Part shown: positions 22,310 to 52,381 of the stretch, piece after piece
How the letters are laid out: each line of letters begins with the position of its first letter
Numbering within the stretch: position 1 is the stretch's first letter
Assembly: GCA_003024785.1 (NCBI GenBank)
Contig: PUQB01000231.1
Location: forward strand, 62,001-126,000
Direction of reading: 5' to 3'
From: Selaginella tamariscina
Lineage: Eukaryota > Streptophyta > Lycopodiopsida > Selaginellales > Selaginellaceae
DNA: 64,000 nucleotides
The notes under the pieces: generated by a model
What the model saw: the letters and a program-made list of their open reading frames with translations, nothing else
The model's database searches: none
What the model was told of the DNA's origin: nothing
Made by a program: the position numbers and the translations under genes

Positions 22310-22640
22310 TAAAGAAATATCCTTCCCTATCCTACATTTGTCTGCTTTTAGAAGACACACTAGCATGGATTCCTCACGCTCCTTTGTCCACAACCTGAAA
22401 CAACGGGCCCTTTGCCGGCACAATGTGTAAAAGACAAACTGGTTTGATGCATTGCCTTCTGGTAACAACTCCACATCTTCTCCAGAACTCGCAGAAACTG
22501 ACATCAATTGAACCACATGTATACTGAACCAACAAGGAATGTTGAAAGCAAATGAAGATCATGTTCAAACACAAAAGCATTTCCATCTTCATCGACTGGG
22601 AAATCTTTGTCAATGCCTTCATAGGTAACTCTGGCCATGA
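22310..22640 (-). pseudogene. MULE copy 1: 5' fragment of transposase gene
   Basis: Nearly identical to 34745-35063 of the complete MULE, including its start (MARVTYEGIDKDFPVDEDGN). The match stops at about 22310, before the catalytic region, so only the first hundred or so residues are represented and the MULE end is missing on this side. The divergent partner gene follows on the + strand, as in the complete copy. Confidence 0.8.
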
Positions 22641-22899
22641 CAACGCAAGGAGAAAGCTCGGTGGTTTAGGAAAGCAAAGCAAAAGATTAAACACACTCTC
22701 GTTCGCCAAAAAAAATTATAATCGTTGATAATAAACGTGAATACACTTTTATATAATTAATTCTACGCTGCCCAGCTCACAGTGTTCTTAATGCTGTCCT
22801 CTCTAGTATCACCATTTAATTTAATTACTACCTTTTATGATTTGAAATATCTTCACCTTTACCAATTATTCACATATTTTAATATTAACCCTAAATATT

Positions 22900-23765
22900 A
22901 ATGTCACATTTATTCCGTAGGGTTCACTGTTTTCATTGCGGCTAGGGTTTTTTGGTAGATAGGGTTTACTGTTTCCATGCGGCTAGGGTTTTTTTAATCT
23001 CAGATCTGAGTTCTAAATCTCCTCCAAGGGGCTTGAGAGGAGCGGCGCCATCCATTTCGAGTCGATTTGTGCAGCGCCCAAGTAAATCAATCGAGATTTC
23101 TGTGCCGATTTAGATTGTCGGCACCATTTGCTCAGTCGGCGGCCACAAGGTATGTGCAATTTCTTTATTTTATGATTTGCGGCTCAAATAATTTATTTTT
23201 CAGAGATAAAGGGTCTTCCCATTTGTGCCGACTGAGAGCGACGGCACCATCCTGGTTCAGTCGGCCACAAGGTATTTTCAATTTGTTTATTTTTTTCTTT
23301 GCGGCTCAAGTATCCGTATCACAATGTTTTTTTTTTCAGAGTTAATGTGTCTTCCCATTTGTGTCGGAATCCCAGAGATAAAGGGTCTTCCCATTTGTGC
23401 CACTGAGAGTGACGCACCATCCTGGTTCAGTCGGCAACCACAAGGTATTTTGAATTTGTTTATTTTTTGCTTTACGGCTCAAGTATTTCTTTTTTCAGAG
23501 TTAATGGGTCTTCCCATTTGTGCCTGAGAGAGACGGCACCATCCTAGCTCAGTCGGCACCATTATCTCTTCAGTGCCGTCTGAGAGGGTCGGCACCAACC
23601 TATCTCAGTCGGCAGGATTTGCTTCTTCTACATCTCTGTGCCACTGAGAGGGTCGGCACCATCTAGCTTGAGTCGGCAGCCACAAGGTTAGTCATCTTTG
23701 ATTTTTATTTTTCATTTTGTCTCCTAATCAATTGACTTGTGTGTTTGCTTTCCAGAGTTTACAAA
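22900..23765 (+). promoter_or_regulatory. MULE copy 1: 5' leader of tandem exon-intron modules
   Basis: The leader of the ParB-like gene repeats a module three to four times. The exon-like part runs from GGTCTTCCCATTTGTGCC through GAGAG.GACGGCACCATCC to CAGTCGGC..CCACAAG. It is followed each time by an intron-like stretch of 55-70 bp that starts GTAT and ends TTTTTCAG. The arms GCCGACTGAG and CTCAGTCGGC, and GTGCCG and CGGCAC, can fold as hairpins. The last intron (GTTAGTC to TTTCCAG) ends just before the ATG at 23766. Splicing is inferred from the consistent GT/AG ends. Confidence 0.7.
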
Positions 23766-26010
23766 ATGGTGAGAGCTTCAAAACGTCTACTAGAGACTGC
23801 GCCTGATGAAGAGCCACGGGAAGAGAAGAGGATATCGAAGCACAAGCGAGGAAAGAGAGAGAACCATCTAATGTAGCAAAGGAGGATCCTCCAGTGACTC
23901 AGTCTGAAGTAGTACCAGTTGAGCAGGAGCAGCCTCCATCAACCATCACAGATTTCCCGGAGAGCTCGTCGCAGTTGCCTCCTTCATCCGCTGAGGTTAC
24001 AGTCCTGAACGAGCAAGTGCAGATGACAGAGGCAGTTGAAGCTAGCGAGGACGACTTGGAGGAGGCAGTCAGCAAAAAGAGAGGCCGCGGGAAAGCTGAT
24101 CCAAAAGGCAAGAAGGCGAAGAGCGATAAGGAGCCGAAGGAGTTATACAGCATACCGGCTAGCCTGCATTTGGAGAGCTCAGCGAACCTGCTCGACAAAA
24201 TTACTGTCAAGGGACTTGGTGATCCTCCTGATGTGCCCATCTGTAGAATGCATTCGAACGAGGTGGTTCGACGAGTGAACCCAAGGGACTTGACAGGCTG
24301 TGTCATCGTTGAAGAAGGCTGGTTATTATGCAACACGGCCTTGTTCATTCTGTCCATTGAAGATCAACTCACTGCTGAGGAGCTATTGGAGCTTTCTAAG
24401 GACACGGTTCAGTACGAGTAGCACCGGTCTTTCGAGCAAGCTCTTACTCTGTCGGAGTACAAATAGTGGGCTTCGAGGCTCTCAAACCCGGAAGTTCAGC
24501 TGCTGGGACGGGAACCATAGGCTACAGGCTTTAGAAGCTCTACCGGGAGGATGCAGAGGACAACCAGCGATGGGCTATTGCGTTCGATGAGTTTCATCTC
24601 CACGGAGAACCTCGACAATTTTCAACTGGTTTCGATGTTCCAATCGATAAACATGTGAGTATTTTCTTTTCTTTTGTTAAGGGTCTAGACTTACAGTTTC
24701 ATTGAACAGATCTTCAGCAACATCTGTGGAAAAACACTACCACATATTCTCCTCGCTGTAAAGGTGGTCTGCACTAGTACCGAAGGAACTCAGAAAATCC
24801 TCGAGTCACTCAGAGGTTGATCGTCTTGAGGTGGAAGTGGAAGGAGAGTTCAACAGGAAAGAGGCTTGGCATCCTCTTCCAAACCTGATCTGCGCAAAGA
24901 TCCTTTTCAAGGTAACCTCCGATTTGATTGATAGGAAAGAAGTTTTTAACTTATTCTATGTGCAGAACAAGATCGACGATGATCTGACAAGCAGTCACCA
25001 GTGCTAAGGGCAATCCACAGCTTGAGCTGAACCTAAAGCAGCTAGTGTACAAGAAGCATGACAAGCGTATGCACAAGTTCCTCTCCATCATAGACCCAGA
25101 CTTGGGGGAGGAGTGGTTCCAGAAGGTGACGAACATCTCTCATAAGCAGTGTCGCTGGATGGGCATTGAGAAGCTGTATGCGATGTCAAAGGCAAAGATT
25201 TCAAACATGCTGCGACTCCGATACTTAAACAAGCTCACTCGTCTCGAATCCAAGGCAGAACAACAGACACTTGGGCTACCAGGCATGCAGGACAAAGAGT
25301 GGATCAAGTGGTTCACCTTGGACTTATATTGGAAGGTTGTGTGCGAGGAAGCCATTCAGATCCTTAAGGGGTTGCGAGAGGATGGTGAAGAAGTTGGAAC
25401 GGATATCGACTTCATGAGCTGGTTTGACGAGATGCGAACTGGAGCAAGTGCCTGGTCTTTCAGCCCTTCCATGACTGCATACGGTTCACTTATTCGATGG
25501 AGCCGAATGAGTTTCTGGAGCGTGAGGAGTTGCGTCGGATGATATGGAGGTAAGCTTTCATTCCAGCATTGCTACTGTTGACTTTGTGTTACAGGTTCAT
25601 ACTGGCGAAGAAAATGGCACCGTCTCAGACGATGAAGCTGTGGACAGATCATACAAGCGAGCCTCACATGTGGTCGAAGAGCAGAGGAGCTCTAACACCG
25701 TTCGAACAGGAGCATGTTCATTCTAGCTCGACTGTCCGTCACAACAGCCACCAGCTTGGGAGAGCTCACTATTCAACGTGCATGGCAATGATCTACCAGA
25801 GATTGTTTGGGAGCCGGACGAAGTAGAGGCTATCAAGAAGAGCAAGATGAAGAAGATGGTGCAGAAGACAACTACACCTGCAAAGGGATCGGGAGCGGGA
25901 CCAAGCTCTTCTACAACACCTCCGTGGCAATCGACTTTACAATCAATGAGGTGCAGCCACTTGTAGCTGTTTGGACATCAAGGACGACCTGATGACCTTC
26001 ATCCCAACCC
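23766..26010 (+). pseudogene. MULE copy 1: ParB-like gene, N-terminal two thirds
   Basis: It starts MVRASKRLLETAPDEEPR and continues with a basic, Lys-rich, nucleus-like region (KKRGRGKADPKGKKAK). The ParB-like domain follows: DPPDVPICRMHSNEVVRRV, then a GxxRxxA-type motif read as DGNHRLQAL near 24510. Next come a long alpha-helical region (HKQCRWMGIEKLYAMSKAK, LRYLNKLTRLESKAEQQ) and an acidic WF-rich stretch (DIDFMSWFDEM). Introns of about 60 bp lie near 24655-24712, 24912-24965 and 25550-25593. The frame changes several times relative to the 36.3 kb copy, and the methyltransferase part is absent because the sequence passes into a Ty3/gypsy element near 26010. Identity to the second copy looks above 90% by eye. 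Confidence 0.72.
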
Positions 26011-29000
26011 TGGCTACTTATCCCACTGGCCTTCTTCTGGTTAATAGTGCACCTTAGCATATCTTCCAGAACTTGGTTCACCCTCTCTGTTTGCCCATCT
26101 GTTTCGGGATGATCTCCACTACACAGCTTAAGCTTCACTTCTATGCACTTAGAAAAGCCTCTCCAAAAGCTAGAAGTGAACTTGGAGTCCCTATCACTTA
26201 CAATATCATCTGGAAATCCGTGGATAGGAAATACATGTTGTAAATACATCGTAGCCAGCTCGGATGCATTCACATTCTTCCCCAAGGGAACTAACTTGAC
26301 AAACTTTGTCAACCTGTCCACAATGACCCACACCTGTTCATTCTGCCTCTGTGTCCTTGGCAAATGGGTGACAAAGTCCATAGAGATACTGCCCCATCGC
26401 CTGTCTGGAATAGGCAATGGTACTAATAGCCCACCTGGTTTTCCCTGGGCACCTTTACTTGCTGACACTTGTCACAAGTCCTGCAGTACTCTATGATATC
26501 AGCTTTCATATTCCTCCAGTAGAACCTCCTCTTGATCAACTCATACGTTTTCCTCCCCCCAAAATGACCAGCCTCCGGGCGATCATGATGAAAATATAGT
26601 ACCTGGTTGATCAAATGGTCCACACGAGGAAGGTACACACGGCCATTGTAGTACAAAACCCCATCCTGAAATGAGAATGGTGGCTCTAGCTGTCCTCTGA
26701 GCTCCTGCACCTCGGCGTCTTGTGCTTGAGCATGTTGAACTACTTGGCTAAACTCACTGACCGTCCTTGTTAATGCATTACATAAGCGTGTTTGGAATTC
26801 TCCCACTACTGTGGCTCTCCTAACGCGTGACAAAGCATCTGCCACCACGTTAGCCTTTCCGCGCGATGCTCAATAGGAAATTCGCCAAACTCCATGAGCT
26901 TAACCATCCAGCGAGCTTGCCGAGAGTTTAACTCTTTCTGTGTGAACAGATACACCAAAGGCTTGTGATCTGTAAACACCTTGAAACTTGCACCATAAAG
27001 ATAGTGCCTCCAAACTCGTAATGCATTAACAATAGCCAGTAGTTCTTGCTCATACGTTGAGTACCGTTGCTCTGCAGGATTCAAAGTACGACTCTCATAA
27101 GCAATAGGCCTTCCCTCTTGCATAAGTACAGCTCCAATGGCCACTCCACTTGCATCACACGATACCTCATAAGGCTTAGAGGGATCTGCAATACATAAAA
27201 CTGGTGCACGTACCAAAGCTTGTTTCAAAGCTTGGAAACTGCTCTCCTCTGAAGCACTCCATGCAAAGGGAACGTCCTTCCTAGCAACCTAGTTAAGGAG
27301 AAGCTTTCTTGGCATAATCCTTGACATACCGCCGGTAATAACCAGCCATGCCCAAGAAACTCCGTAACTCTTGTGCATTGCTAGGAACTGGCCATTGCTC
27401 CACCACTGCCACCTTCTGTGGATCAGTCTTCACTCCACTTGGCGTCACAATGTGACCCAAATACTCCACTTCGCACTGAGCAAATGCACATTTGCTCTTC
27501 TTTGCATAGAGCTTGTTCTCCCTCAGCAATTGAAGAACTCTCCGCAAATGCTCCACATGCTCCTTCATATTCTTACTGTAAATAAGAATATCGTCGAGGA
27601 AGATCTCCACAAAGTCATGCAAGTAGTCACCAAACACCTCAGTCATCAACCGAGTGAATGTGGCTGGGGCATTTGTTAAGCCAAATGGCATAACAGTGAA
27701 CTCAAAATGCCCGAAGCTAGTGTTGAAAGCAGTTTTGTAGATATCTGCCTCCTTCACAGCAATCTGATGATACCCGCTGACAAATCTATCTTGGTGAACA
27801 CTCTGGCTCCACCGAGATGATCCATGATAGTATCCACACGTGGCATGGGCATCCTGTCCTTCACTGTTTGCTTGTTGAGAGCTCTGTAGTCTATGCACAT
27901 CCTCATGGTGCCATCTTCCTGACAAGCAATACTGGTGCACCAAATGGAGACTTGCTCGGTTGTATGAAGCCATATTCCAATAGCTCCATCACTTGTCTCT
28001 TAACCTCTTGCTCCTCAGCATGGCTCAGTCGGAACAACTTNATGGTAAATTGCTTTCGTACCCTGTTCCAACATAATCTCATGCTCCACACCTCTTGCAG
28101 GTGGTAAGCCATGAGGTAGCTCGGGAGGGAAGACGTCAGCAAATTCCTCAAGGACAACTTGCACAGCAGCTTCACCCAAAAGGTGACATTAGAAGAATCT
28201 AACTCACGTATATACATCAGAAAGACTTGATCTTCTTTATTACAGAGATATTTCTTCAAAGACATAGTAGAAAGATACTTGTTTGAAGACTCAAGCCTTG
28301 TTCCAAACCAAGTTTTTTTCACTCCACTGTACTCAAGCTTCACTCGTTTGATGCTCCACTTGATCTTAGGATCCACACGCTCCAGCCAGCTCATCCCAAG
28401 GATGAGGTCCACACGCACTAGCTCCGCAAGAAAGAAAGTCTCCACCAGCTGAGTTTTGCCAACCGTCAGATGTAACTCCTCCACACAAGCATTCCAGCTC
28501 TGTTCGACAATAGCTGAGCCCTCAATCTCGTATTGAGGCATAGTCTTTATGGGCAAGCTGCACTCCTGCATTAACTTTGCTGATATAAGTTATCATTACT
28601 TCCGCTATCCAAGAGGATTCGCACTGGACATTCACCAAGTCGTCCCTCCACCACAATAGCACGTGTGTGTGGCTCCTCCCGTGCCATGCAGTTTGCCTAT
28701 TGAGCAAGAACAAACAGAAATTTACCTCATGGCTTAGAACTATCTTTCTTGTGTTCCTCTCCACGCTCCATCTCATGAAGCTTCTTAGGTGTCTCCTTGT
28801 CCTTGTCACCATTGAGACCCTTGCCCTTAGGCTTGTTCCTCCTTGGACAATTGGCCTTCCAGTGTCCCACCTCTCCACACAGGTGGCAACGTTCACTATC
28901 AAACACCTTAACAATCTTCTTAGGCCGATTGCCGGTGCGATAAGAACTAAAAGCTACCAGCTTGGATTTCGGCCTAGCACGATGGCTATTCCTCTATACT

Positions 29001-31706: not shown

Positions 31707-31715
31707 TGTTTAACA
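31707..31715. repeat. Left 9-bp target-site duplication of the MULE
   Basis: TGTTTAACA, identical to 44529-44537. Nine bases is the length made by Mutator-like transposases. Confidence 0.75.
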
Positions 31716-31800
31716 GGGTCCCGGCCAAAAGGAGGCTCCGGCTCAGGAGGCTTCATATTATTCTAGTATATTCGCGGATATTCCAAGTATTCTAGCATAT
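31716..31800 (+). repeat. MULE left terminal inverted repeat
   Basis: About 10 of the first 17 bases match the inverted right end, and longer identical blocks lie further in (CAGGAGGC, TTCTAG-ATATTC). It is decayed but recognisable. Confidence 0.65.
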
Positions 31801-31905
31801 TCTAGAATATTCTCAAGAATATTCTAGAATATATAAGTTTTTTTAATATGCCGACTGGCTTAATATATGCCGACTGGCTTAATAAAGCATTTTTTTATGA
31901 ACCAT

Positions 31906-34900
31906 TTATCCTTGTAGCACCGGTGGGTCATGAACTCTGCTGCAATTCACTAGCAAACGGTGGACCTCCATCTCACTGAGCGATCGCCTTTGTAGAAAAT
32001 ATGTGACGTCCGGGTTCAAGCCAAGCACACGGCTGTAGACGAAGTACATGTGTACACATGGTCTCCAACTTTTGCTCTTCTGAAAAGTAGAACAACTGCA
32101 TGTAGGATAAGTACTAATAGTCACCTTTGCAGAATCATTTCCTACCGGCACAACGAAAGCCTCCTTCCGTCCTCTAACTGTCACTTCAACATTTCTCACA
32201 CGACCTAAAAACGTTTGGCCTTGTGGAAATTCTTCTCTTGTTCCTTAGACATTTTTGTTGGAGTCCGGACCATACGTCCTTTGAAAGGTGGAATTGTTGT
32301 AGATCCAGCTCCACGTGGTGGCGATGGTGTTTTGTCCTTCTGACCCTCATCTACTCTTCCTGCCGTCTCCTGTAAACCTTCCAGAACAAAGCCTGCATCC
32401 TGTAGTTCTCTGACCTCCTCACTTGTCAGTTTCGTTTCCTTGAGCACAGGCCAAACCGTTGGTGGTGTTGGAATTCGTGACTGAAGAATTTTACCGTTTG
32501 GCCGTGTGAAACACCCTGAATCTTTTGGGCAGAACCACATCATCTGTTGTACATACTCCTCATTCCCAAAGGCATCACTGTACATTCGTTTTCCATAGAA
32601 TCCTAGTGCTGGCACTCTGCTTGGATAACCGATTGGTTTTCCACACAGAGCAGTTCCTTCCTGATTCATCCCCAAACACTTAACCTTACTAGTGCTCCGA
32701 TTCGTCTGATGGCCCACTCTGTTTGAGCAATCTCTCTCTCCAAAACCTCTTCGAACCTTAACCTCTTTCTCCTGTTGTTTTGGACCACCCGCTCTATGTA
32801 CTCTACATCATGCCTGTGTGAACTTCAAGCATCAGAATGTTCTGTTCCTATGACTGTTCTCCTAACAGTTTGCACTCGAACGTTAGTGGTACTCATAAAC
32901 TCTGAGCTGGTCAAGTGTTCCTCGCCTTCCACCAGATTGATAATTGTTGATGGAGATACACTTTTCCCCTCAGAGAGTTTGCGTTGCACTCGTTTCAACA
33001 GAGTTTCCTTCAAAGGACCTGACCCTGTATACCTCCCTTCTATTGCCGTTTTCACCTTCGCACTCTACATAACTACATCGGTGAGGTCTAACATTGTCGC
33101 CTCCAGCAGTGGTACTCTTTTGGCCAATCTTGCTCTTCTTGCTCTCGCGTGAATCACTTCAGCATTGTTTGTAGTTGGAACACTCGCGAGTCCTTCTTCT
33201 GTCATGTCTCCCAGTTCCACCATGGAGATGTGGTCCTCATGCCTGATCCACCAAGACAACCATGTCTTCAAAGCTCCAATGTTTGATGCTCGTCCTTCCC
33301 AAAAAACTTGAGACTTGCTAGTTGTTCTTTCTTAGATTGTTCATTCAGTGCTACAGGCTAGGCACGAGCAAGCTTCATGTGTTCTTCGCGATGTTCTTTT
33401 GCGATCCATTTCTTTGTCACCTGACGCACGGATTGCATAAAGTGAAATAGACAGCTTCTTTCCCTCCCTTTCATCTTTTCTCCGTTGTTGAATACTTGGC
33501 GCAAGGCTATCTATATCGCTCCAGCCTCATCCGACATGAAACTAGCAAAGTTGACATTCTCCAAACCCTGCTTCTTACAAACCTCTAGCATTGTGTTCAA
33601 GAACTTCAGCACTGCAACATTATCTTCGTGGCACATATCTGCGTAAGCTATAGTCACCATGGATCTTGACACTGTAACAGAGCATTAGATAACAAAGATT
33701 AGAAAGTGTTATGAAGAGTTCTACAACTTACAATGGGTCATAAAGGTGTATTCCAATTGTCGCCCAGTCTGGTATATGGTGCGTGTGGTCCAGAACAACC
33801 CATTGATCATGAAGGTCTCCTCCACTTTGACACCTTCTGATGTAGTCAACTCTTGAACCTGGTCCCTCAATTGTCATTTTGAAGATCAGAGGCTGCTCCT
33901 TAGCACCATGTAGTTCCATCCCTGGAACATGTATGACGTGAATGAAAGGTATTGGCAACTTTGTCTTCAGCTCCAGAAGACCCTCGTAACCTCTCTAAAG
34001 TGTGTCTCCTTCTATCTTGATTGTGTAATCTAGTCCCGAGTCCTAAAGAAAAGGTCACGTCAGTGTGTAGAGATCTAAAGAAAAATACCTTCGATGGTTT
34101 GTTAGAGGTTCAAGTTTTTGAGAGTAAACTAGTGTACGAGACTTGTCCTTCTTCCTTGAAAAGTTTTTCAAAGATGAGCTCACGCGCAGCTTGAAACTCA
34201 ATTACTCGTTTATTGGTTCGTAGACTGCTCTTTACCACGTTGCTGACACTAGATCTGGCACGTTGAACGTTTGAAGCTACACTAAGGGCTGACTGGATGT
34301 TGATGAACACCTCTGTGAATGAATAACCTTGTAAAAGAAATGTCGTCTGGCAGAATGTAGTACACATAAGCCGGACAAGTGTGCACTAACAATGGCTCCT
34401 CTCCACAATGCTTACATTTTCATGCCTATTACTTTGCCTGACTCGGTTGTCTTTGCCTCCTTCACAACACCCTTGAAGTGACACTCATTTGCTTTCTTCT
34501 TAAAAGCCAAGTAGGGGCAGGTAGGATTGATGCAGTTGAGATGTCCAACAACTTTGACTGACACGCGCCGGAACATGTCAGTGTGTGTGTGCTCGGGTGT
34601 GTTCCAATGGTAGCAGCCATCCTTGCGATTCATCCCCAAGTACTTCTCTGTGGTTTCTTTCTTTGGAGGAAGTTCGTAAATGACATTTCCATTGTATATC
34701 TGCGGTAGTTCAGAGACTTGTTTAACTTCAGACGAACCAATGAGATCCTTCCCTATCCTACATTTGTCTGCTCTTAGAAGACACACTAGCATGATCCTCA
34801 CGCTCCTTTGTCCGCAACCTGAACAATAGGCCCTTTGCCGGGCACAATGTGTAAAAAACAAACTGGTTTGATGCATTGCCTTTTGGTAATAACTCCACAT

Positions 34901-35063
34901 CTTCTCCAGAACTTGCAGAAACTGACATCAATTGAACCACATGTATACTGAACCAACAAGGAATGTTGAAAGCAAAGTGAAGATCATGTTCAAACACAAA
35001 AGCATTTCCATCTTCATCAACTGGGAAATCTTTATCAATGCCTTCATAGGTAACTCTGGCCAT
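31906..35063 (-). CDS. MULE transposase with SWIM zinc finger, decayed
   Basis: It cuts and joins the element ends. The start at 35063 gives MARVTYEGIDKDFPVDEDGN. A Cys/His region follows (YHWNTPEHTHTDMFRR, CINPTCPYLAFKKK), then HRGVHQHPV, which is typical of the region before the MULE catalytic core. The core shows HIPDWATIGIHLYDP, MTIAYADMCHEDN (a candidate catalytic Asp), FMSDEAGA (second Asp) and RERSCLFHFMQSVR, with the C..H signature of this superfamily. Near the C-terminus (about 32120-32030) is a SWIM finger, CSCSTFQ..WRPCVHMYF. Introns of about 45-60 bp are seen at about 34085-34045 and 33730-33675. There are at least three frame shifts and an in-frame stop near 33515, so I infer it is inactive. 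It is head to head with the ParB-methyltransferase gene, with a start-to-leader gap of about 280 bp. Confidence 0.78.
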
Positions 35064-36266
35064 GACAACGCAAGTAGAAAGCTCGGTGGTTTAGGAAAGC
35101 AAAACAAAAGATTAAACACACTCTCGTTCACCAAAAAAAATTATAATCGTTGATAATAAACGTGAATACACTTTTGTATATAATTAATTCTACGCTGCCC
35201 AGCTCACAGTGTTCTTAATGTTGTCCTCTTTAGTATCACCAATTTAATTTAATTATACCTTTTATGATTTGAAATATCTTCACCTTTACCAATTATTCAC
35301 ATATTTTAATATTAACTCTAAATATTAATGTCACATTTATTTCGTAGGGTTCACTGTTTTTATTGCGGCTAGGGTTTTTTGGTAGATAGGGTTTATTGTT
35401 TCCACTGCAGCTAGGGTTTTTTCAATCTCAGATATGAGTTCTGAAATCTCCTCCAAGGGGCTGAGAGGAGCAGCGCCATTCATTTCAAGTCGATTTGTGC
35501 AGCGCCCAAATAAATCAATCGAGATTTTCTGTGCCGATTTAGATTGTCGACACCATCCTGCTCAGTTGGCGGCCACAAGGTATGTGCAATTTCTTTATTT
35601 TATGATTTGCGGCTCAAATAATTTATTTTTCAGAAATAAAGGGTCTTCCCATTTGTGCCGACTGAGAGTGACAGCATCATCCTGGTTTAAAAATAAATTA
35701 TATAACAAATTTAATTTAACACTTTCTTTAAATTATAAAGTTATTATAAATCAGTCGGCAGCCACAATGTATTTTCGATTTGTTTATTTTTTTTCTTTGT
35801 GGCTCAAGTATCCGTATCACAATGTTTTTTTCTCAGAGTTAACTTGTCTTCCCATTTGTGTCGAAATCCCAGAGATAAAGGGTCTTCCCATTTGTGCCGA
35901 CTGAGAGTGACGGCACCATCCTGATTCAGTCGGCAACCACAAGGTATTTTGAATTTATTTATTTTTTGCTTTGCGGCTCAAGTATTTCTTTTTTCAGAGT
36001 TAATGGGTCTTCCCATTTGTGCTGTCTGAGAGGGATGGCACCATCCTAGCTCAGTCAGCACCATTATCTCTTCAGTGCCATTTGAGACGATCGGCACCAA
36101 CTATCTCAGTCGGCAGGATTTGTTCTTCTACATCTCTGTGCCAACTAAGAGGGTCGGCACCATCTAGCTTGAGTCGACAGCCACAAGGTTAGTCATCTTT
36201 GATTTTTATTTTTCATTTTGTCTCCTAATCAATTGACTTGTGTGTTTGCTTTCCAGAATTTACAAA
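35064..36266 (+). promoter_or_regulatory. MULE centre: divergent promoter and modular 5' leader
   Basis: 35064-35340 separates the two divergent genes and is AT-rich. From 35345 a GCGGCTAGGGTTTTTT phrase occurs twice, then the same exon-intron modules as in copy 1 run to 36255, each ending CCACAAG before GTAT and resuming after TTTTTCAG. A small AT-rich insertion absent from copy 1 lies at about 35686-35751. The repeated inverted motif GCCGACTGAG/CTCAGTCGGC could act in DNA (a binding site) or RNA (hairpins). Confidence 0.65.
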
Positions 36267-39200
36267 ATGGTGAGAGCTTCAAAACGTTTACTAGAGACTG
36301 CACCTGATGAAGAGCCACGGGGAGAAGAGAGAGGATATCGAAGCAGAAGTGAGGAAAGAGAGGAGAACCATCTAATGTAGCAAAGGAGGATCCTCCAGTG
36401 ACTCAGTTGAGCAGGAGCAGCCTCCATCAACCATCACAGATTTCCCGGAGAGCTCGTCGCAGTTGCCTCCTTCATCTGCTAAGGTTACAGTCCTGAACGA
36501 GCAAGTGCAGATGACAAAGGCAGTTGAAGCTAGCGAGGATGACTTGGAGGGGTAGTCAGCAAAAAGAGAGGCCGCGGAAAAGCTGATCCAAAAGGCAAGA
36601 AGGCAAAGAGCGATAAGGAGCGAAGGAGTTATATAGCATACCAGCTAGGTGGTTCGACGAGTGAACGAGGTGGTTCGACGAGTGAACCCAGGGACTTGGA
36701 CAGGCTGGTGTCATGTGTTGAAGAAGGTTGGTTATCTGCCTTGTTCATTCTGTCCATCGGAGATCGACTCACTACTGAGGAGCTATCGGAAGCTTTTAAG
36801 GACACGGTTCAGTACGAGTAGCACCGGTCTTTCAAGCAAGCTCTTACTTAGCCGAAGTACAAACAGTGGGCTTCGAGGCTCTCAAACGGAAGTTTAGCTG
36901 CTGGGACGGGAACCATAGGCTATAGGCTTTGCAGAAGCTTTACCGGGAGGATGCAGAGACAACCAGTGATGGGCTATCGCATTCGATCGAGTTTTCATCT
37001 CCACAGAGAACCTCGACAATCTTTAACTGGTTTCGATGTTCCAATCGATAAAACATGAGTATTTTCTTTTCTTTTCGTTAAGGGTCTAGACTTACAGTTT
37101 TAATGAACAGATCTTCAGCAAACATCTGTGGAAACAACGCTACCACATATTCTCCTCGCTGTAAAGGCGGTCTGCACTAGTACCGAAGGAACTCAGAAAA
37201 TCCTCGAGTCACTCACAGAGGTTGATCGTCTTGAGGTGCAGAAGTGGAAGGGAGAGTTCAACAAGAAAAGACGGCTTGGCATCCTCTTCCAAACCTGATC
37301 TGCGCAAAGATCCTTTTCAAGGTAACCTCCGATTTGATTGATAGGAAAGAAGTTTTTAACTTATTCTATGTGCAGAACGAGATCGACAATGATCTCGACA
37401 GAGCAGTCACCAGTGCTAAGGGCAATCCACAACTTGAGCTGAACAAGAAGCATGACAAGCGTATGCACAAGTTCCTCTCCATCATATACCAAGACTTGGG
37501 GAGGAGTGGTTCTAGAAGGTGACGAACATCTCTCATAAGCAGTGTCGCTGGATGGGCATTGAGAAGCTGTATGCGATGTCAAAGGCAAAGATTTCAAACA
37601 TGCTGCCACTCTGATACTTAAACAAGCTCACTCGACTCGAATCCAAGGCAGAACAACAGACACTTGGGCTACCAGGCATTCAGAACAAAGAGTGGATCAA
37701 GTGGTTACCTTGGACTTATATTGGAAGGCTGTGCGTGAGGAAGCCATTCAGATCCTTAAGGGGTTGCGAGAGGATGGTGAAGAAGTTGGAACGGATATCG
37801 ACTTCATGAGCTGGTTTGACGAGATGCAAACTCAGAGCAAGTGCCTGGTCTTTCAGCCCTTCCATGACTACATACGGTTCACTTATTCGATGGAGCCGAA
37901 TGAGTTTCTGGAGCGTGAGGAGTTTGTGCGTCGGATGATATGGAGGTAAGCTTTCATTCCAGCATTGCTACTGTCTGATTTTGTGTTATAGGTTCATACT
38001 GGCAAGAAAATGGCACTGTCTCAGACAATGAAGCTGTGGACAGATCATACAAGCGAGCCTCGCATGTGGTCGAAGAGCAAAGGAGCTCTAACACCATTCA
38101 AACGAGAGCATTTCCATTCTGGCTCGACTGTCCGTCGCAACAGCCACCAGCTCACTATTCGACGTGCATGGCAATGATCTACCAGCGATTGTTTGGGAGC
38201 CGAACGAAGTAGAGGCTATCAAGAGAGCAAGATGAAGAAGACGGTGCGAAAGACAACTACACCTACAAAGAGATCAGGAGCGGGACCAAGCTCTTCTACA
38301 GCACCTCCGCCAGCAATTGACTTTACAATCAATGAGGTGCAGCCACTTGTAGCTGGTTTGGACATCAAGGACGACCCTGATGACCTTCATCCCGACCCTT
38401 GCTGCATCCCGTGGATCCTACGACCTGGCTATTGTCACAACCTAATACAGGATACAGGATTTCCAGATACAGGATACAGGATTCCAGATACAGGATACAG
38501 GATGCAGGATTTCGGATACAGGATACGGGTTACAGGATACCTATAGGATATTCCTATAGGATATGCTACAGGATATGCCTAGAGGATAAGGGACACTATT
38601 CTTAGCTCATGACTAGATTAGACTCATGACTTAGATTAGCTTGGAGTTGTGAGCATAAAAGCTCCGACCTAATTGTTGTACAATCAGTTACTATCAACAC
38701 CAGTCTTTCTACGATCATTCTTATTCTTATCTTGTTCTTGTCTTGTCTTGCTCCTTTGCCTCCTGCTCTTGTCTCGTCCTAGATCCAGTCCTGTTTCTTG
38801 TCCTATTCCTGGATCCTGTCCTGCACTCTCCTATTCTTGCTCTCGAATCCTATCCTGCTCCTGGATTTGTCCTTATCCTGATTCTTGAGTTCCTAGTTCA
38901 TGTCCTGCTCCCTGTTCCCAATTCCTATCTAGCTCCTTGTCCAGCTATCCTGCTCCATTTCCTATCCTACCCCTTGTCATGCTATCCTGCTCCATTTCCT
39001 ATCCTGCTCCTTGTCCTGCTATCTAGTTCCAGTTCCTATCCTATTCCTTGTCCTATTCTTGAGTTCCTAGTTCCATCCCACTCCGGTTCCTATTCCTGCT
39101 CCTTGTCCTGCTCCTTGTTTCTACTCCTGAGTTTCTAGTTTCCTGCCCTACTCCTGTCCTGTTTCTGAGTCAAGCCTTCCTGTTCTTGGAATCCTGCTCT

Positions 39201-42200
39201 CTTCCTGGTTCCTGGATTGTGGCTTGACAGTTTGATAGTAACTGCTTCCATAGCTCTCCATTTCCTAGTTACTTTTTTTTCCTTGGTTTTCCTTCGTTTT
39301 CCTCTTTTTCCTTTTCATAGATCATGCCGATTTTGAGCACTTTCAACGTGAGCACCAAATGTTGCTTCATGAGCTGGCCACTTTGCGCCAAGTGGTCACC
39401 GATCTGCAAGGCTCCACCATGCAGCACATGAAGCTGCTGATGCATCCTCCAAGGCTGCTGCGCAGGCTCTCTCTCATGCATCAGTGGTTCCTTCTTCATC
39501 GAACTTTTCTTCGGAGCTGAAGATCAGCATGCCAGAAAAGTTCAGTGGCAACCGTGCCGATTTTTAAGATTTCCTGAATCAGATCCGGCTCTTGATCCGC
39601 ATGCAACCACGCCGCTACTTGACTGACGCACAAAAGGTTGGCCTTTGGCATCCTTACTAAGTGGATCTCCCCGGGCTTGGGTTGCCCCTTTGCTGGAACG
39701 TGACGATCCATTGATGGAAGATTTTGAAGGATTCATGGCTGCCTTTGAAGCCTGCTTTGGAGATCCTGATAAAGTACATTCCGCATGCACGAAGTTACGC
39801 AAGCTCACACAAGGATCCCGACCAGTTTTTGTTTATGCATCCGAATTTCAACAACTTTGCACGAACGTTCCATGGGACGAGACTGCATTGATCGAACACT
39901 TCCGTTTTGGGCTGAGGGATGACGTGAAGGACCTTCTCCTTACGTTACCGGGATGCCCAAACCTTAGCAGAGATCATCCAACAGGCCGTTCGCTGTGACA
40001 ACCGTTTGTTCGAACGTCGTCAGGAAAAATCTCGTCAGTAGTTCCTGCAAGTCAATCCTGCAGCTGTAGCACATGTTCCTATGACACCTTCTGGAGTAGT
40101 CCCTATGGAGGTTGAAATACAAGCGTGGTCCACTTTCAGCTGCGGAAAAGCAATGCCGTCGTAGTGAGAACTTATGCTTGTATTGTGGTGAAGTAGGACA
40201 CAAGGTGGCGGAATGTCTTGCTAAAGCCAAAGTTCAAGATGTGCGAAGTTGAAGCCGAAGTTCAATGTCCACTTGGTCTAGGAGCCGTGAAGTTGGACGT
40301 AAGTGCAAGCTCCATTGGTGTTGCTCATACCATTTCATCACTCAAGTTTCCTGTACACATTCGCTTCAATAACCGAGAGCTCAAGGAGTTTGCCCTGTTA
40401 GACACTGGTGCAAATGCATGTTTCATGGATGACACTTTTGCAGCTCAGCATGGCATTCCGGTGGTGGAAGTTGAAGCGTGCAGTTCTTGTAGAGGTGGCC
40501 ATGGTCGTTTGATTGCTTCTGGCACAGTTACCCACACTACCACACCTCTCTCTTGCAGTCATGGCGCATTCAACTGTTTGATTTCCTTCAACTTGAAAAC
40601 TCGGTCGACTCCCATCATTTTTGGCATGCCATGGTTCGTTGTTGCAAATCCACAGATCGACTGGAGGTCTAGGACGCTCACGTTTTCCTCTCCAGCAGCC
40701 AAGATCAATCATGTACCTTGCGTGCAGGATACATCCTTGTGTCTGAGGCAGTACAAGCTACAGGATTGATTGTGCCTGTTCCTATATTAGTGTTGAAGAC
40801 TCCTCCTCGACAGGGTTCACCTCATGTCAGCTCCTCAGCACATCCGCAGGCTCTCTCCACTCCTGTAAGTTTGCGGTGTCTGTACAGGGTTCTTCCAATC
40901 CTGTATCAGTGTCGAAAGTTCCTCCTCAATAGGATCACCTCCTGTTGGTTCCTCAGCACATCCGCAGGCTTTCTCCACTCCTGTAAGTTCACAGATTCAT
41001 TCCTCTAAGGTTGCGGATTCCTGTATAGGGTTCTTCCAATCCTGTATAGTGTCGAAGGTTCCTCCTCGAAGGATTCACCTCCTTTTCGTTCATCAGCCTA
41101 CAGGTTCATCAGGCTCCAGCAGATTCAACACTTCTACAGGACATCCGTTCGCAGTTGGCTACAGACGATTTGGCAAGGAATGTGTTCTCACAAATTAGCC
41201 TGACATTGCAAGTTCCTCTTCCTCCAGTTCCCGTCCAACTACAACCTGTTCACCATACATGATGGACTCCTGTACCGGGAAGGTCCTGTACGTTCCTGTT
41301 GGTATTTCCAGGACTCGTGTGGTACAGGATTGTCATGATACCCCGGCTACAGGACATTTTGGTGTGGCCAAGACAGTGGAGTTGGAAACTCGCAACTATT
41401 GGTGGCCTGGTTGCGAGGTTTTGAGGAGAGGTTGTTATGGAGTTTGTGACACTTGTAGCAGTCGAAGCCTCATCATGCACCCTCTGGTCTTCTTCGTCCT
41501 CTTCCTGTTCCTTCTGCTCCTTGGGAGATCCATTTCTATGGATTTCCTCACAGATCTTCCCCCTTCTCGTGATTTGATGCGTTCTTGTGGTGTTGACCGT
41601 TTCACCAAGCAAGCTCATTTCCTACCTGCAACAAGATAGCTACAGGTCAGACAACTGCCGAGTTGGTGATCCGCGAGGTGTTCCGACATCATGGTCTTCC
41701 TGAGAGCATTGTTTCCGATCGAGGTCCACAATTCATGTCCAAGTTTTGGCGAGAGCTTCTTTGGAGTCTACAGGTTAAAGCGGATCTTTCTTCAGGATAT
41801 CACCCACAACCGATGGCAGTCCGAATGCACAATTCAAACCTTAGAACAGTATCTTCGTTGCTTCATCAGTTACTAGCAGTACAACTGGTTGGACCTTCTT
41901 CCAATGGCGAGTTTGCCTACAACAACTCCGTTCACGCATCTACAGGACAGACACCTTTCTTTGCTCTTACAGGCCACCATCCACGTTTTGATTGGCTCCT
42001 CCCGCTTCTCCTTCTTCCGCTCCTGCAGTACAGGATCGTCTTCAGCATCTTCTGCAGGTACAGGATGATCTCCAGGTTCACCTTCAGCAGGCACAGGAAC
42101 GATACAAGCATCATGCTGATGCTCACGTCAGCCGGCACCTGCATACAAGATTGGTGACCTCGTGTGGCTTCTTCGTCGACACATTCGCACCAACAGGCCT

Positions 42201-44354
42201 TCTTCTAAGTTGGATTTTCAACGATTGGGCCCTTACAGGATCGTGGCGGAGGTAAATCTTGTAGCTTTCCGACTCGAGTTACCATCCACGGTGAAACCTT
42301 ATCTTGTGTTTCACACCTCCTTGTTGGAGCCGTATCATCCTTCTTCTCTTCCTGGTCGTGCTTCTTTTCCTTCCCCTCCTGTGGTCATTGCTGGTGAACC
42401 TGAGTACAAGTTGCAGCCATCCTTGATTCTCGTCTTCATCGCCGCCAACTTCCAATACTTGGTGGATTGGAAGGTTATTTGCCTATTGATTCGCACTTGG
42501 GAACCTCATCCAACTTACTCATGCTTCTTCCAAAGTTGCTGCCTTCCATCGGCATTATCCTGCTAAACCAGGTCCTAAGACTCGTGGAACTCGTCCTTAG
42601 GGAGGAGGTGCTGTCACAACCCGATACAGGATATAGGATTCCGGATACAGGATACAGATGCAAGATTTCGGATACAGGATACGAGTTACGGATTGCCTAC
42701 AGGATATTCCTACAGGATATACCTAGGATATTCCTATAGATATGCCTATAGGATATGCTACAGGATATGCCTAGAGGATAAGGGACACTATTCTTAGCTC
42801 ATGACTATATTAGACTCATGACTAGATTAGCTTGGAGTTGTGAGCATAAAAGCTCCAACCTAATTGTTGTACAATCAGTTACTATCAACATCAGTCTTTC
42901 TACGATCATTCTTATTCTTGTCTTGTTCTTGTCTTCTTGCTCCTTTGCCTCCTGCTCTTGTCTCGCTCCTAGATCCAGTCCTGTTCCTGTCCTATTCCTG
43001 GATCCTGTCCTGCACTCTCCTATTTGCTTCGAATCCTATCCTGTTCCTGTCCTGCTCCTGGATCTTGTCCTACTCCTGATTCCTGAGTTCCTAGTTCATG
43101 TCCTGCTCCTGTTCAGCTATCCTGCTCCAATTCCTATCTAGCTCCTTGTCCAGCTATCCTGCTCTTTCCTATCCTACCCCTTGTCATGCTATCCTGCTCC
43201 ATTTCCTATCCTGCTCCTTGTCCTGCTATCCTGTTCCAGTTCCTATCCTATTCCTTGTCCTATCTTGAGTTCCTAGTTCCTATCCCACTCCGGTTCCTAT
43301 CCTGCTCCTTGTCCTGCTCCTTGTTCTACTCCTGAGTTCTAAGTTCCTGCCCTACTCCTGTCCTGTTCCTGAGTCAAGCCTTCCTGTCTTGGAATCCTGC
43401 TCTCTTCCTGGTTCCTGGATCGTGGCTTGACAGCTTTGTGCGATATGGAGGAGATGAGCAGGTCTTTTTCAAGCTGGGTGCTTCCCAAACAAAGTGTACA
43501 CCAAGCTCCGACAACAGGTTGACAGACTACATACGACTGAGTCACAAACGGTGTTCCAGGAAGTGGTAGGTGAATACGGCTTCAACCTCATCATCCTCGA
43601 CTTGCCCAATGAGCTTATATATGGAGGTGCTAGCATCACAAGGACATTGTGCAGCTAGATCTGGTGAAGTTTGAGGAGGCCTTGCAGTCAGTGGAATGCA
43701 CTTGGCAACGAGTGGTTTCATGGTTGTCTTCGTGAGTTCTCCTTCTGTATCGGCAGTGTTTCAGGCGGCTACGGTAATCAAATTGGAGGTTGCAAGGACT
43801 TACAACCTCTACCGTGCACGAGGCTGGGATACCGTGACAAAATTAAGGTGAGCTAGCTACTCAAGTTCAAGTTTAACTTGGTCTATGTGGCAGGATAACT
43901 TGTTAGTTCTCTTGGTGCTGCAAAGCTCTGAGAAGAAGTCGAAGAGGCCAAACCCTCTGGCATTGACGAACACGATCCTCGTCGACACCACGACCGTTTT
44001 CAGGAGGCTTGGTAAGGAAGTACTTTGCTTTGTTTATCCTAATGGAAGTTTGTCAGGATGATGATTCAACCGAAGAGTGTTCGACTCATGCAGCTTTTGA
44101 TCGAGCATCTCAGTAGACCTGGCGACCTAGTCTGGGATATTGGTTCTGGAACTGGATCATCGTTGTTAGCTGCCGTCGAGCTCAGAAGGAATATTATAGG
44201 AACCAAGAAGAGTTTCAAACTCTCTAGGTTGGCAACAAACAAGCTCGCAGAGAACATTAGACCAGAGGAATTACCTACTCAAACACCTCCACGTCCAAGC
44301 CTAGCTGGTGGTTCGAGAACTGTAGCTCTACTTAAGATGAAGAAGAAACTTTAG
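36267..44354 (+). CDS. ParB-like plus beta-class DNA methyltransferase-like gene
   Basis: The N-terminal part (36267-38432) parallels copy 1: MVRASKRLLETAPDEE, a basic region, ParB-like RRVNP..., the GNHRLQA-type motif near 36915, then the helical region (SWFDEMQTQSKCLVFQPF, EPNEFLEREEFVRRMIW). After the chromovirus insertion it resumes at 43433: a DPPY-like strand (LIILDLPNELIYGG, near 43590), a helical spacer, and then PKSVRLMQLLIEHLSRPGD with WDIGSGTGSSLLAAVELRR near 44130. The order DPPY before FxGxG is the beta class of N6-adenine/N4-cytosine DNA methyltransferases. ParB N-terminal domains fused to such enzymes are known in bacteria and phages. The motif reads DLPN rather than DPPY, so catalysis is doubtful. 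Several frame shifts and the insertion suggest it is now dead. By inference it modified or bound DNA for the element. Confidence 0.68.
38433..39229 (+). repeat. Chromovirus 5' LTR
   Basis: Begins with a GATACAGGAT tandem motif region, then a long low-complexity stretch of TCCTGTCCTG-type repeats, and ends TTGTGGCTTGACA. Confidence 0.88.
42612..43432 (+). repeat. Chromovirus 3' LTR
   Basis: Same architecture and ends as the 5' LTR; a few short length differences lie within the CCTG-rich part. Confidence 0.88.
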
Positions 44355-44451
44355 CTAATGTATATTGAGTAATAAATTAAGCTAATATAAAAAGAATAAG
44401 ATAGAAATACAACAGTTTTACTAGAATTCCTTTTGCTGACTGAGGCCAATA

Positions 44452-44528
44452 CTGCCGACCAGAAAGAATATTCTAGAATATTCGAGCCCAGGCCTCCTGG
44501 GCCCCAAGAATCCAAAATGGCGGCACTC
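44452..44528 (-). repeat. MULE right terminal inverted repeat
   Basis: The reverse complement begins GAGTGCCGCCATTTTGG and contains CCAGGAGGCC and ATTCTAGAATATTC, aligning with the left end. Confidence 0.65.
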
Positions 44529-44537
44529 TGTTTAACA
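44529..44537. repeat. Right 9-bp target-site duplication of the MULE
   Basis: TGTTTAACA, identical to 31707-31715. Confidence 0.75.
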
Positions 44538-45168
44538 TACTTCACACGCTGTGCACGAACACTCTCAAGCACAACAAATTTGTCGATATCATAGTCTAAT
44601 GCCCGTCTCCATGTAGCTCAATCTCATATAAATCAAATTATGTTTATACTTTAATTCTATGTTTGTTTCTTATTATTAATTTAAATATATTATTGTTAAT
44701 CAATTACATTTATGCAAATATTATTTCTTCAATATCAATTATTCTGTATCAGCTTACCTTTTGGGACATGAGGTACAGCGGAGGACGAGTTGCACTACCT
44801 GTTACATAGAAGCATTGAATAGTGTTCTCATATATACATATGAGGTTCTTATAACATCATGACTTAAAATAAGGAAATAAACATGCACGTTGTACTAAGT
44901 GGGCATGATACGTGAAAATGGGAATATAAAATAAATTACTAATTAATACTTAAGTTTTAATTATTAATTAATCATTTAATTAATATGTAATTAAGCCTTA
45001 AATATTAATTAATTAATTAATTAATCCTTCAATAACCTTACTTAGTAAGGAATATTCCTAAAATATCTTAGAATATTCATATTATTCTAAAAATAGTTTA
45101 CAATAATGAAGAAATACTATCAAACATAATTACAAATGAAATCATTTTCTTATCAACATGTTAATTTT
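44538..45168. other. AT-rich spacer
   Basis: Strongly AT-rich with TTAATTAATTAA runs; no gene supported. Confidence 0.4.
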
Positions 45169-46316
45169 TTATAAATACTTTCTTTCTATCATACAAAGAA
45201 ATCTTTTCATTTTGTCTAAATCATCACTCTCCGGATTAATCAAATCATTTTGGTCAATATCTTGATGTTGTTGCCACCACTTAACACTCTCACGAATGCA
45301 ATTGGGAGTTGCCATCCTTGTTAATACATAAGATGTGATAAGAGAAGGTCTGCATAAAGGCTCATCTAAAAACTGACGTTCCTTAAGAATAATATTATAA
45401 AGCGCCCGGTTGCTATCCTTCATTTTATAAAATTCAATATCACGAGAAAGAAAAGCTTCAGGAAATGTATGATACGGTGGATACTGCTCACAAAAATTTT
45501 CGAGATTCTTCTTTCTGAGGCACGTATCCAAGTAGTTCACTAGCTCATCCATGATATCGGTATCAGAATATGGATCGAAAGTGATTGGATGAATACAAGC
45601 AATGTTTTGGTTGAGCATAGCCTTCTGAGGAGAGTCGTCTACTACTAAGATATGTGCATTCTTCGTTATCCTTAAGCGACTGATCTCCCCATGAGTCCCA
45701 ATTATTCTTTCATTCTTGAAGAAGTATGGCTTGCTTTCCTTTCTTATATTGTGAAATTCGAGAGGTTTATACACATTCGCTGGTCAAAAATCCAATCTTT
45801 ACGAATCACCTCTTCTGCAACACTACAATGTTTCTTAAGTAAATCAACAGCGGTGTTAAGTTATGAATCTGCATGCATGACCAAATCCCCACAAGCGCAC
45901 CCATCTCCTTAAGCTTTTGAAAGAGACGATCCAACCCTGGACGAAAAATAATATCATATCGAAATTTACCATGACAAGGAATGAAATCTCCTTGTTTGAT
46001 TTCTGTTTTTCTATCCTGGGCCTTTGTCGATGAAGCAGAACACCATTGACATCCAACAACACAATATGGCCATGAGTAACATGAGATAGCGTTGCCTCTT
46101 GAATACTTTGCAAATCACTTGTTTGCTCCCTTTCACATTTATCCGTTGCCACTATTTCGTTGCCTATCCCTTCATCATTTAATTGTACATCATCCTTACA
46201 AGATTCAGATATTGCATGCGCTGAAGAAATTGATTTCGGAACTGAAGCCAATAAAAATGATGAAAAACTGAAGTGGCCCCCATGGTAACGATGTTTTGAG
46301 CTGCATTATTATCCAT
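45169..46316 (-). pseudogene. FCP1-like HAD phosphatase, frame-broken
   Basis: The FCP1/NLI family are HAD phosphatases acting on phosphoproteins such as the RNA polymerase II tail. HIVLLDVNGVLLHR (near 46070) is HAD motif I with Asn at the second Asp. FRPGLDRLF and LVGIWSCM follow in another frame, then KNAHILVVDDSPQKAMLN (about 45640), a good motif for the FCP1 DDSP loop, then a C-terminal helical region ending at 45169. The frame changes at about 46000 and 45850. Either the gene is decayed or very short introns were missed. The D-x-N form also occurs in divergent plant members, so loss of activity cannot be concluded from that residue alone. It lies just downstream of the second ParB-methyltransferase-like gene, on the same strand, about 290 bp away. 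Confidence 0.62.
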
Positions 46317-46608
46317 TTCCTGCATGAACTCTGTCATTCTGACATGTGGCACAAGAAATTGTCGCCAAACCCCTCTCTTACCTCATGCAATGCTGAAAAT
46401 CCATGTTCTCAATTATTTCATTACATCTGCAAAATGATAATTAGCTGACCTTAAAATTATCAAGGTATATTATTTACCTTGTTAATGTGTGACCCATGTT
46501 TGAACTAAAAGCTTCATTAATCCTTGAGAATTTATTTTCTGTACAAATATAAAAGAAATATACAAAAATGCCTTATGTTACACTCATTTACAACTATTCA
46601 TCACTCTA

Positions 46609-49600: not shown

Positions 49601-49756
49601 TTTAATGTCACCTCAATTCCACATCTGAATACAAAAATGATTAGTTCAAGTATCCGAGTATAACAGATTTTATTTTAATTCTTACCCAGAATTTGACGAC
49701 GACTCCATACTAATGACTCGATCTCCTTGTTTGATCAAATCGTCCTTCTGCAAAAT
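46609..49756 (-). CDS. Second ParB plus methyltransferase-like gene, decayed
   Basis: The first coding exon read ends near 49687. It starts after an acceptor at about 49757 and gives KDDLIKQGDRVISMESSSNS; an intron of 65 bp (49622-49686) follows in frame. The next exon carries GEEMGRGILESTWPYFKING and a long unrecognised region. The ParB-like part is NPNFNYRPLNQERVAELMEK (about 48830), with YYIISGQHTITAAQRLL near 48600 as the GxHR-type motif. An intron at about 48311-48250 carries one palindrome copy. Basic Lys-rich and helical regions follow, then a 53-bp intron near 47354-47404. AWVFDYCTRGSVLKECYLRH with CVFAVEKDK (about 47000-46940) resembles motif I of DNA methyltransferases, with the glycines largely lost. 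The C-terminus is acidic and ends at 46609. At least four frame shifts are seen. It is a diverged relative of the MULE cargo gene, head to head with the DUF7869-type gene. Confidence 0.6.
48276..48293. repeat. Palindrome copy inside an intron of the ParB-like gene
   Basis: GGCGAGATAAATCCCGCC differs at two positions from the array palindrome and matches the variant at 51077-51094 except its last base. It lies in an intron of about 60 bp with GTAAGC and TTCCTCAG ends on the minus strand. Confidence 0.7.
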
Positions 49757-49844
49757 AATACACTATAAATATAAATTATATAAAAACGCACACACACTTG
49801 TATAAACCCGAATATACAAAAATAATACACAGAGAGAAGTAGAC

Positions 49845-49942
49845 GTAATTAACTGTCCGAAGCTCACATTTGTGTTAGTGCAAAAGAAAGATAACATTTC
49901 GTTTTAGAACCACCACAAATGTGAGCTCTGGACAGTTTTACA
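49845..49942 (-). ncRNA. Strong hairpin, candidate small-RNA precursor
   Basis: ACTGTCCGAAGCTCACATTT (49852-49871) pairs with AATGTGAGCTCTGGACAGT (49919-49937). With the flanks the stem is about 35 bp with few mismatches, and the loop is about 27-37 nt. Length and shape resemble a plant microRNA foldback or a tiny MITE. It lies between the first coding exon of the ParB-like gene and the palindrome array, probably in its first intron. There is no evidence of transcription. Confidence 0.45.
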
Positions 49943-50046
49943 TAGATTCCTAGCTTTTACTCGAAATATTATGATAAGATGATAAAAGTAAATAAAATGA
50001 GATATGCAACTTATATATACTAATACACATATATATTCACATGGAA

Positions 50047-51217: not shown

Positions 51218-51234
51218 GCTCGAGGGGCTTAGCG

Positions 51235-51923
51235 AGATAAAAACACACACATATATATATATGTGTGTGTGTATATATATATATATGTATGTATGTATGT
51301 ATGTATAGGAGTGTACGTGTGTGTGCAAGAGATAAATAAATAAAATTATACAGTACTGGTACACCTAATATATGTGTGTACATAGGTATATATATGTGTG
51401 TATATGTATATCGTGTGTATGCGTGTGAGCGAAACAAATAAAATCATACAGATAAACAAACACACACACACATATATATACACAGGAGTGTGCGTGTGTG
51501 TGCGAAAGATAAAACTAATAAATAAATAAAATTATACAGATAAACACACAATATATATGTGTGTATATAGATATTAATCTATAGAGAAAGAGAGAGAGTC
51601 TGTGAATATATAAGCATATATATAAACTAGTGTTGTATGTATGTATATATGTATATAGGTACATATATATGTGTATATGTATATTGTGTGTATGCGTGTG
51701 TGAGCGAAACAAATAAAATCATACAGATAAACAAACACACACACACACATATACATACACAGGAGTGTGCGTGTGTGTGCGAGAGATAAAACTAATAAAT
51801 AAATAAAATTATACAGATAAACACACACATATATATATGTGTGTATATAGATATATAACCTATATGAATATATAAGCATATATATAAACTAGTGTTGTAT
51901 ACTATTTGTTAATATGCATTGAT

Positions 51924-51960
<37 letters not shown>

Positions 51961-52027
51961 AAAGCAGTGCACGTGTGTGTGGGAGAGATAGATCAATAAA
52001 AAAAATTTACAGATACTGGTACACATA

Positions 52028-52080
<53 letters not shown>

Positions 52081-52380: not shown

Positions 52381-52381
52381 A

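Follow-up and report, generated by a model that had tools for sequence, protein, structure and literature searches.

Does a DNA transposon of Selaginella tamariscina carry, beside its transposase, a gene of DNA-modification type, and does this gene belong to the element or merely travel within it? The question is raised by a 64-kb stretch of contig PUQB01000231.1 (in the following "the window"), in which a sequence-only reading had seen a MULE with a transposase on one strand and a long gene with ParB-like and methyltransferase motifs on the other. We find a decayed DNA transposon at 31716-44528 of the window; its parts are listed in Table 1.

Table 1. Features of the decayed transposon and of a related truncated copy in the 64-kb window
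Feature	Position in window	Strand	Basis
Left 9-bp target-site duplication TGTTTAACA	31707..31715	no strand	Sequence; border confirmed by other copies
Left end, imperfect terminal inverted repeat and two GAATATTC palindromes (31805, 31817)	31716..31850		Sequence, other copies
Decayed transposase gene, homologous to the F1 transposase	31924..35063	minus	tblastn with F1 transposase
Accessory gene part 1: ParB-like motif region and long middle region; broken frame	36267..38433	plus	Sequence, tblastn
LTR retrotransposon within accessory gene	38433..43437	plus	Self comparison
Accessory gene part 2: predicted beta-order methyltransferase domain	43437..44354	plus	PF01555 match; F1 homology
Right end, imperfect inverted repeat and two GAATATTC palindromes (44466, 44476)	44380..44528		Sequence, other copies
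Right 9-bp target-site duplication TGTTTAACA	44529..44537	no strand	Sequence
Second F2 copy, truncated	22319..26015	plus	Self comparison, tblastn

The perfect 9-bp duplication flanks the element on both sides as had been claimed, and the similar inverted ends are indeed there, i.e., as short imperfect inverted repeats (GGGTCCCGGCC / GAGTGCCGCC), with the left end reading GGGTCCCGGCCAAAAGG and the right end, on the other strand, GAGTGCCGCCATTTTGG. The borders rest on more than the duplication alone, since the similarity of other copies starts or stops at these positions: the left border (31715/31716) is where homology begins in L029, L030 and the single locus L028/L018, and the right border (44528/44529) is where it ends in L011, L012, L019 and L034. 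Between them, the long plus-strand gene (hereafter the accessory gene) is present, but it is broken in frame and split by a retrotransposon of about 5 kb, whose LTRs (38433-39234 and 42612-43438) are 89% identical. Frame changes and stops interrupt both genes, and the window copy is therefore dead.

The truncated copy in the window is 91-95% identical to parts of 34745-38403 (self comparison). By tblastn, what remains of the two genes is the 5' part of the transposase gene (22316-22638, minus strand) and, at 23766-26015 of the plus strand, the ParB-like half of the accessory gene. Directly after it follows a retrotransposon stretch (26038-28175) with reverse-transcriptase-like frames as judged by eye; it shares 88% identity with the opposite strand of 8421-10531. 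In the full element, the region upstream of the accessory gene (35530-36220) contains repeats, each about 150-165 bp long, with CAGTCGGCA-like units.

We searched the genome assembly (300.7 Mb, 1391 contigs) for further copies. Two families, F1 and F2, can be distinguished among the loci examined, the window's being F2. The F2 members L011, L012, L018, L019 and L020 are about 88-96% identical (blocks over 400 bp). F1 consists of seven elements (L009, L010, L013-L017) of 7887-8140 bp each, which are 98.3-99.7% identical to L017 (blocks over 3.9 kb) and form one recent family rather than independent cases. That is, F1 is younger than F2 and has spread very recently. Among the loci examined in detail, to which all duplication and length figures refer, exact 9-bp duplications flank 4/7 F1 copies (L009, L010, L014, L016), L015 shows 8 of 9 matching positions, that of L017 is shifted and imperfect, and L013 has none; for F2, the duplication is exact in the window copy, L018 and L019 and matches at 8/9 positions in L020. 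Genome-wide, the listed matches of the F1 ParB-region exon (best 150 of 1412 candidates scored, with at least 151 matches) are 90-99% identical, and those of the first F1 transposase exon (best 118 of 1909 candidates) 97-100%. A search with PF01555 placed all 150 best of 739 first-look candidates above its cut-off. Between the two divergent genes, F1 carries a minisatellite with units of about 40 bp (3719-4286 in L017), whose length seems to depend on the copy.

All seven F1 copies hold both genes between matching ends, and both ends and both genes are likewise present in the F2 copies L018, L019 and L020. Copies of the element thus enclose the pair and not the transposase alone, and the proposal that the mobile element brings along cargo of DNA-modification type is supported. 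With the F1 transposase, tblastn matches were obtained in 9 of the 12 loci examined besides the window, while the remaining three (L012, L031, L032) show the accessory gene only, without a transposase match within the stretch examined. To assess linkage, we compared the 118 best transposase matches with the 150 best matches each of the ParB region and of PF01555. Of the 118 listed transposase matches, 105 have a ParB-region and/or methyltransferase match at the expected distance, encoded by the other strand: both partners are found for 60 (median distances 2333 bp for the ParB region and 4971 bp for the methyltransferase), the ParB region alone for 29 and the methyltransferase alone for 16. 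The 13 matches with neither are no evidence of absence because each partner list holds the best 150 only; in the two such loci inspected (L050, L051), the ParB-region exon is present with 99% identity. The transposase and the accessory gene travel together between the element's ends in two diverged families.

In F1, the accessory gene comprises six exons for about 1000 residues and stands head to head with the transposase gene on the opposite strand. Its five introns (52-60 bp) keep their GT-AG borders in 7/7 copies. The frame is uninterrupted in two of the seven (1015 residues in L017, 1011 in L013); the other five carry indels for which assembly error and decay are not distinguishable. Pairs of F1 copies are only 0-5 coding substitutions apart, i.e., too few for a selection test within the family. 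In the comparison of F1 with F2, all three stretches tested are saturated at silent sites, while dN is 0.337 for the ParB-like exon, 0.269 for the methyltransferase exon and 0.281 for the transposase, two of the three F2 sequences being from the decayed window copy. By this comparison, the accessory gene is conserved about as strictly as the transposase. Given a dN of about 0.3 despite saturated silent sites, it is under selection and not a passenger. For the accessory protein, no homologue was found among 5.8 billion proteins (E limits 0.001 and 0.1, scored for the candidates with the most shared words).

Capture of host sequence is frequent among MULEs, such that the plus-strand gene might be nothing but a captured host gene fragment, as in a Pack-MULE. 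We regard this as hardly tenable and largely refuted: a full-length multi-exon gene is present in every F1 copy and in F2 too, its protein has been kept across the silent divergence described above, and 105/118 listed transposase matches are paired with it.

What does the accessory gene encode? For its last exon, the PF01555 score is 39.6 bits in F1 and 34.5 bits in the window (44043-44351; cut-off 26.7), with both matches covering the motif X/I end. The gene thus scores to one of the two profiles in question, the methyltransferase one. The motif order reported for the window is confirmed, i.e., DLPN (motif IV, at about 43.6 kb) precedes WDIGSGTGS (motif I, at about 44.13 kb). The F1 protein also matches PHROG methyltransferase families, and its PDB matches include MboIIA, CcrM and DpnA. 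Aligned with hhalign to seven phage or plasmid methyltransferases, the domain reaches a local probability of 97.5 (E 6.9e-12) over 62 columns, covering the C-terminal motifs X and I; when forced end to end, the probability is 98.4 (E 3.6e-14), with a less confident N-terminal half and without a shuffled control. A tblastn search of phage and plasmid sequences likewise returned methyltransferases, and no Pfam ParB domain was found in the two that were scanned (L038, L043). Taken as a sequence-level assignment, the C-terminus is a predicted beta-order N6A/N4C methyltransferase domain.

In both the forced end-to-end alignment and a MAFFT alignment, the DLPN of F1 and F2 sits on the catalytic DPPY. 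Both families therein depart from the (D/N/S)PP(Y/F/W) type. The seven relatives show DPPY, SPPY, DLPY or DIPY; since DLPY and DIPY occur in two phage proteins, the second tetrad position varies in nature, while none of the seven relatives compared lacks the aromatic fourth residue. Since motif I (DIGSGTG) is intact while the tetrad is non-canonical, SAM binding by the accessory protein is likely, which does not imply catalysis by the predicted methyltransferase. The domain could accordingly be catalytically dead, a mere DNA- or SAM-binding part of a protein that acts as a structural transposition or anti-silencing factor. We consider this quite plausible, if somewhat short of probable. The tetrad shared by both families points in this direction, and an inactive N6-adenine methylase domain of DIRS1-type retroposons is described in an earlier article (PMC3537659). 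On the other hand, motif I is not only intact but conserved, while a catalytically dead domain would be expected to decay more freely.

The assignment of the N-terminal half is less clear. RRVNP is indeed encoded in the window copy at about 36.66 kb, but the second motif claimed for it, GNHRLQA, is found in the truncated copy instead; in the element itself, GNHRL is followed by a stop. NP and GNHR motifs are present in the ParB-like part of both F1 and F2. A ParB profile match, on the other hand, was obtained neither in Pfam nor in PHROGs or NCBIfam, such that the ParB claim of the sequence-only reading is not supported at the profile level. A profile search of PDB sequences with the ParB-like region returned no ParB chain; the designed alphaRep repeats and other unrelated chains that it listed were judged spurious. 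Viral contigs showed no relative when compared with the ParB-region alignment. We also used hhalign against four ParB sequences, one of them a consensus. Here, F1 and F2 together give P 0.25, which is within the range of five shuffled controls (0.1-0.78), and gene C alone, from a 5.65-kb unit in the window (see below), gives P 0.083. When F1, F2 and gene C are combined, the alignment to ParB falls into the expected register with P 0.006, at a probability of only 6% and without a shuffled control. AlphaFold2 models from 2 and 4 sequences are all-helical and of low confidence (mean pLDDT 50.8 and 41.8).

Because the motifs are present while no profile or fold confirmed ParB, we label the N-terminal half ParB-like, as a motif-level call. 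Possibly, though we lean against it, the region is some other kind of DNA-binding domain, without a ParB fold, in which the NP and GNHR motifs occur by coincidence. The missing profile matches, the F1/F2 comparison inside the shuffled range and the low-confidence helical models would fit such a domain; the order of the motifs, their place ahead of the methyltransferase, which is the arrangement reported for ParB-methyltransferases of phages and algae, and the register of the combined profile rather speak for ParB.

Gene C (46612-49674), which has NP/GQH motifs reminiscent of ParB, is one of two minus-strand genes in the 5.65-kb unit at 44883-50530. The other is a NIF/FCP1-like phosphatase gene (45169 to about 46400; PF03031 16.6 bits, below cut-off). 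The unit is 98.7-99.1% identical in two other loci and, as judged by eye, without a visible transposase; two gene C exons compared with the genome gave matches of 96-100% identity among the best 150 of 4429 and the best 150 of 5326 candidates. We considered gene C as a third ParB-methyltransferase and rejected it, its motif-I-like tail being no better than shuffles. At one side of the unit lies a 437-bp stretch (49651-50083) that is found inverted at the other side in L048 (8565-9001), and it is perhaps a terminal inverted repeat belonging to an abundant element. Next to gene C, tandem repeats (50800-52850) differ in arrangement between copies.

To which superfamily does the element belong? 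The minus-strand transposase is confirmed, in the window as several pieces matched by the F1 transposase, but its assignment as a SWIM-type MULE transposase is less firm: SWIM (PF04434) is found in the F1 transposase only, with 15.2 bits below the cut-off of 19.6, and the MULE domain PF10551 matches neither the F1 transposase exons nor the spliced core. Read by eye, the protein shows a D / D...CxxH / E pattern with CxxH between the second D and E, which we take to be MULE-type. Among 5.8 billion proteins (candidates scored), a single homologue was found (25% identity, E 6.6e-16), without a convincing Pfam domain. The terminal inverted repeats are short and imperfect in both families. The 9-bp duplications fall in the MULE range (8-11 bp, typically 9 bp). 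Given these duplications, the DDE pattern with CxxH and the SWIM-like C-terminus, although under the cut-off, the element is likely a MULE.

Sola elements, by contrast, make 4-bp target-site duplications. It is thus improbable, in our judgement, that the element belongs to Sola or another DDE superfamily, given that the three features just named fit a MULE. In favour of such a placement, PF10551 is unmatched, the SWIM score is low, and a published Ectocarpus case is a Sola1 element (PMC12477816). A MULE survey gives 9 bp and SWIM for many groups, and its main text does not contain the words 'methyltransferase' or 'ParB' (PMC6446971).

Where could a DNA-binding or DNA-marking protein act on the element? 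In 8/8 elements, the two terminal 200-bp stretches contain 4-6 sites of the palindrome GAATATTC, compared to about 0.01 expected from base composition; the eight are the window copy minus its retrotransposon and the seven near-identical F1 copies, i.e., they represent two families. Apart from this palindrome, the ends of F1 and F2 are unlike. It is missing from the approximately 7.5 kb between the ends, which is uninformative because only about 0.2 sites are expected there by chance. Within the window, 22 sites are found against 1.7 expected, often clustered outside the element. Since the palindrome is also frequent in other parts of the window and would be missing from the middle by chance anyway, the end clusters may not be special. 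We thus treat the end palindromes as candidate binding or methylation sites.

Taken together, we hold it to be reasonably probable that the window contains a dead two-gene DNA transposon, probably a MULE, whose accessory protein binds or marks the element's own DNA and thereby aids transposition or escape from silencing. The divergent genes encode a DDE transposase and an accessory protein of about 1000 residues, with a predicted layout of N-terminal tail, ParB-like region, long middle region and C-terminal beta-order adenine/cytosine-N methyltransferase domain. The N-terminal part may bind the element's DNA, perhaps at the clusters of GAATATTC palindromes within 200 bp of its ends, while the C-terminal domain may mark the DNA or bind SAM there. 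Such marking could help transposition or silencing escape, comparable to VANC in Arabidopsis VANDAL MULEs but by a different biochemistry; to our knowledge, VANC is no methyltransferase. We infer this chain from binding of the ends via marking to transposition or silencing avoidance; observed are the co-travel of the genes, the constraint on the protein and the methyltransferase homology. A more specific scheme of selfish partition and marking, in which a ParB-type clamp would load at the GAATATTC ends as at parS and the self-mark of a methyltransferase with a remodelled DLPN active site would gather the ends for transposition and shield the copies from silencing, appears unlikely to us.

ParB-methylase fusions had been called typical of bacteria and phages; phage cases exist, but an algal transposon case is in print as well. 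For Ectocarpus, a ParB-like methyltransferase encoded opposite the transposase of Sola1-1_Ec32 was described in 2025, in a paper that also cites green and red algal transposon cases (Iyer 2011; Petroll 2025; both as cited in PMC12477816). Like our element, Sola1-1_Ec32 is a DNA transposon with an accessory gene of about 1000-1100 residues opposite the transposase. It combines a ParB-like region with an N6A/N4C methyltransferase domain, while the ParB part is a motif-level call in our case. In contrast to this 21.5-kb Sola1 element, the F1 elements measure 7.9-8.1 kb with 9-bp duplications, and they show many young copies and the DLPN tetrad; the two are likened by description, not by sequence. 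Provided that the ParB-like call holds, phage ParB-N6_N4 methyltransferase fusions unite the two domain types of our protein, but they are prokaryotic (PMC12704722); the present gene is a six-exon eukaryotic one for about 1000 residues, and no ParB profile matched it. VANDAL MULEs with VANC in Arabidopsis (PMC13317346; PMC10398659; PMC5735166) are likewise MULE-type with a second gene acting on their own epigenetic state; a point of difference is that VANC directs hypomethylation. Fungal transposons with TET/JBP dioxygenases also encode a base-modifying enzyme with a proposed counter-silencing role, but these enzymes oxidise methylated bases and belong to elements of other transposase superfamilies (PMC12730594).

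The kind of system is thus already in print, and the present case is a new carrier and a variant of a barely studied kind. The present case adds a carrier with 9-bp duplications that exists in many near-identical copies, for which constraint was measured, and which combines a conserved DLPN tetrad with clusters of palindromes at its ends. Compared to the Ectocarpus case, selection keeps a transposase/methyltransferase pair together in one more transposon type, probably a different one, that has expanded very recently, and its many near-identical copies provide a system in which it can be tested whether eukaryotic transposons write their own DNA marks.
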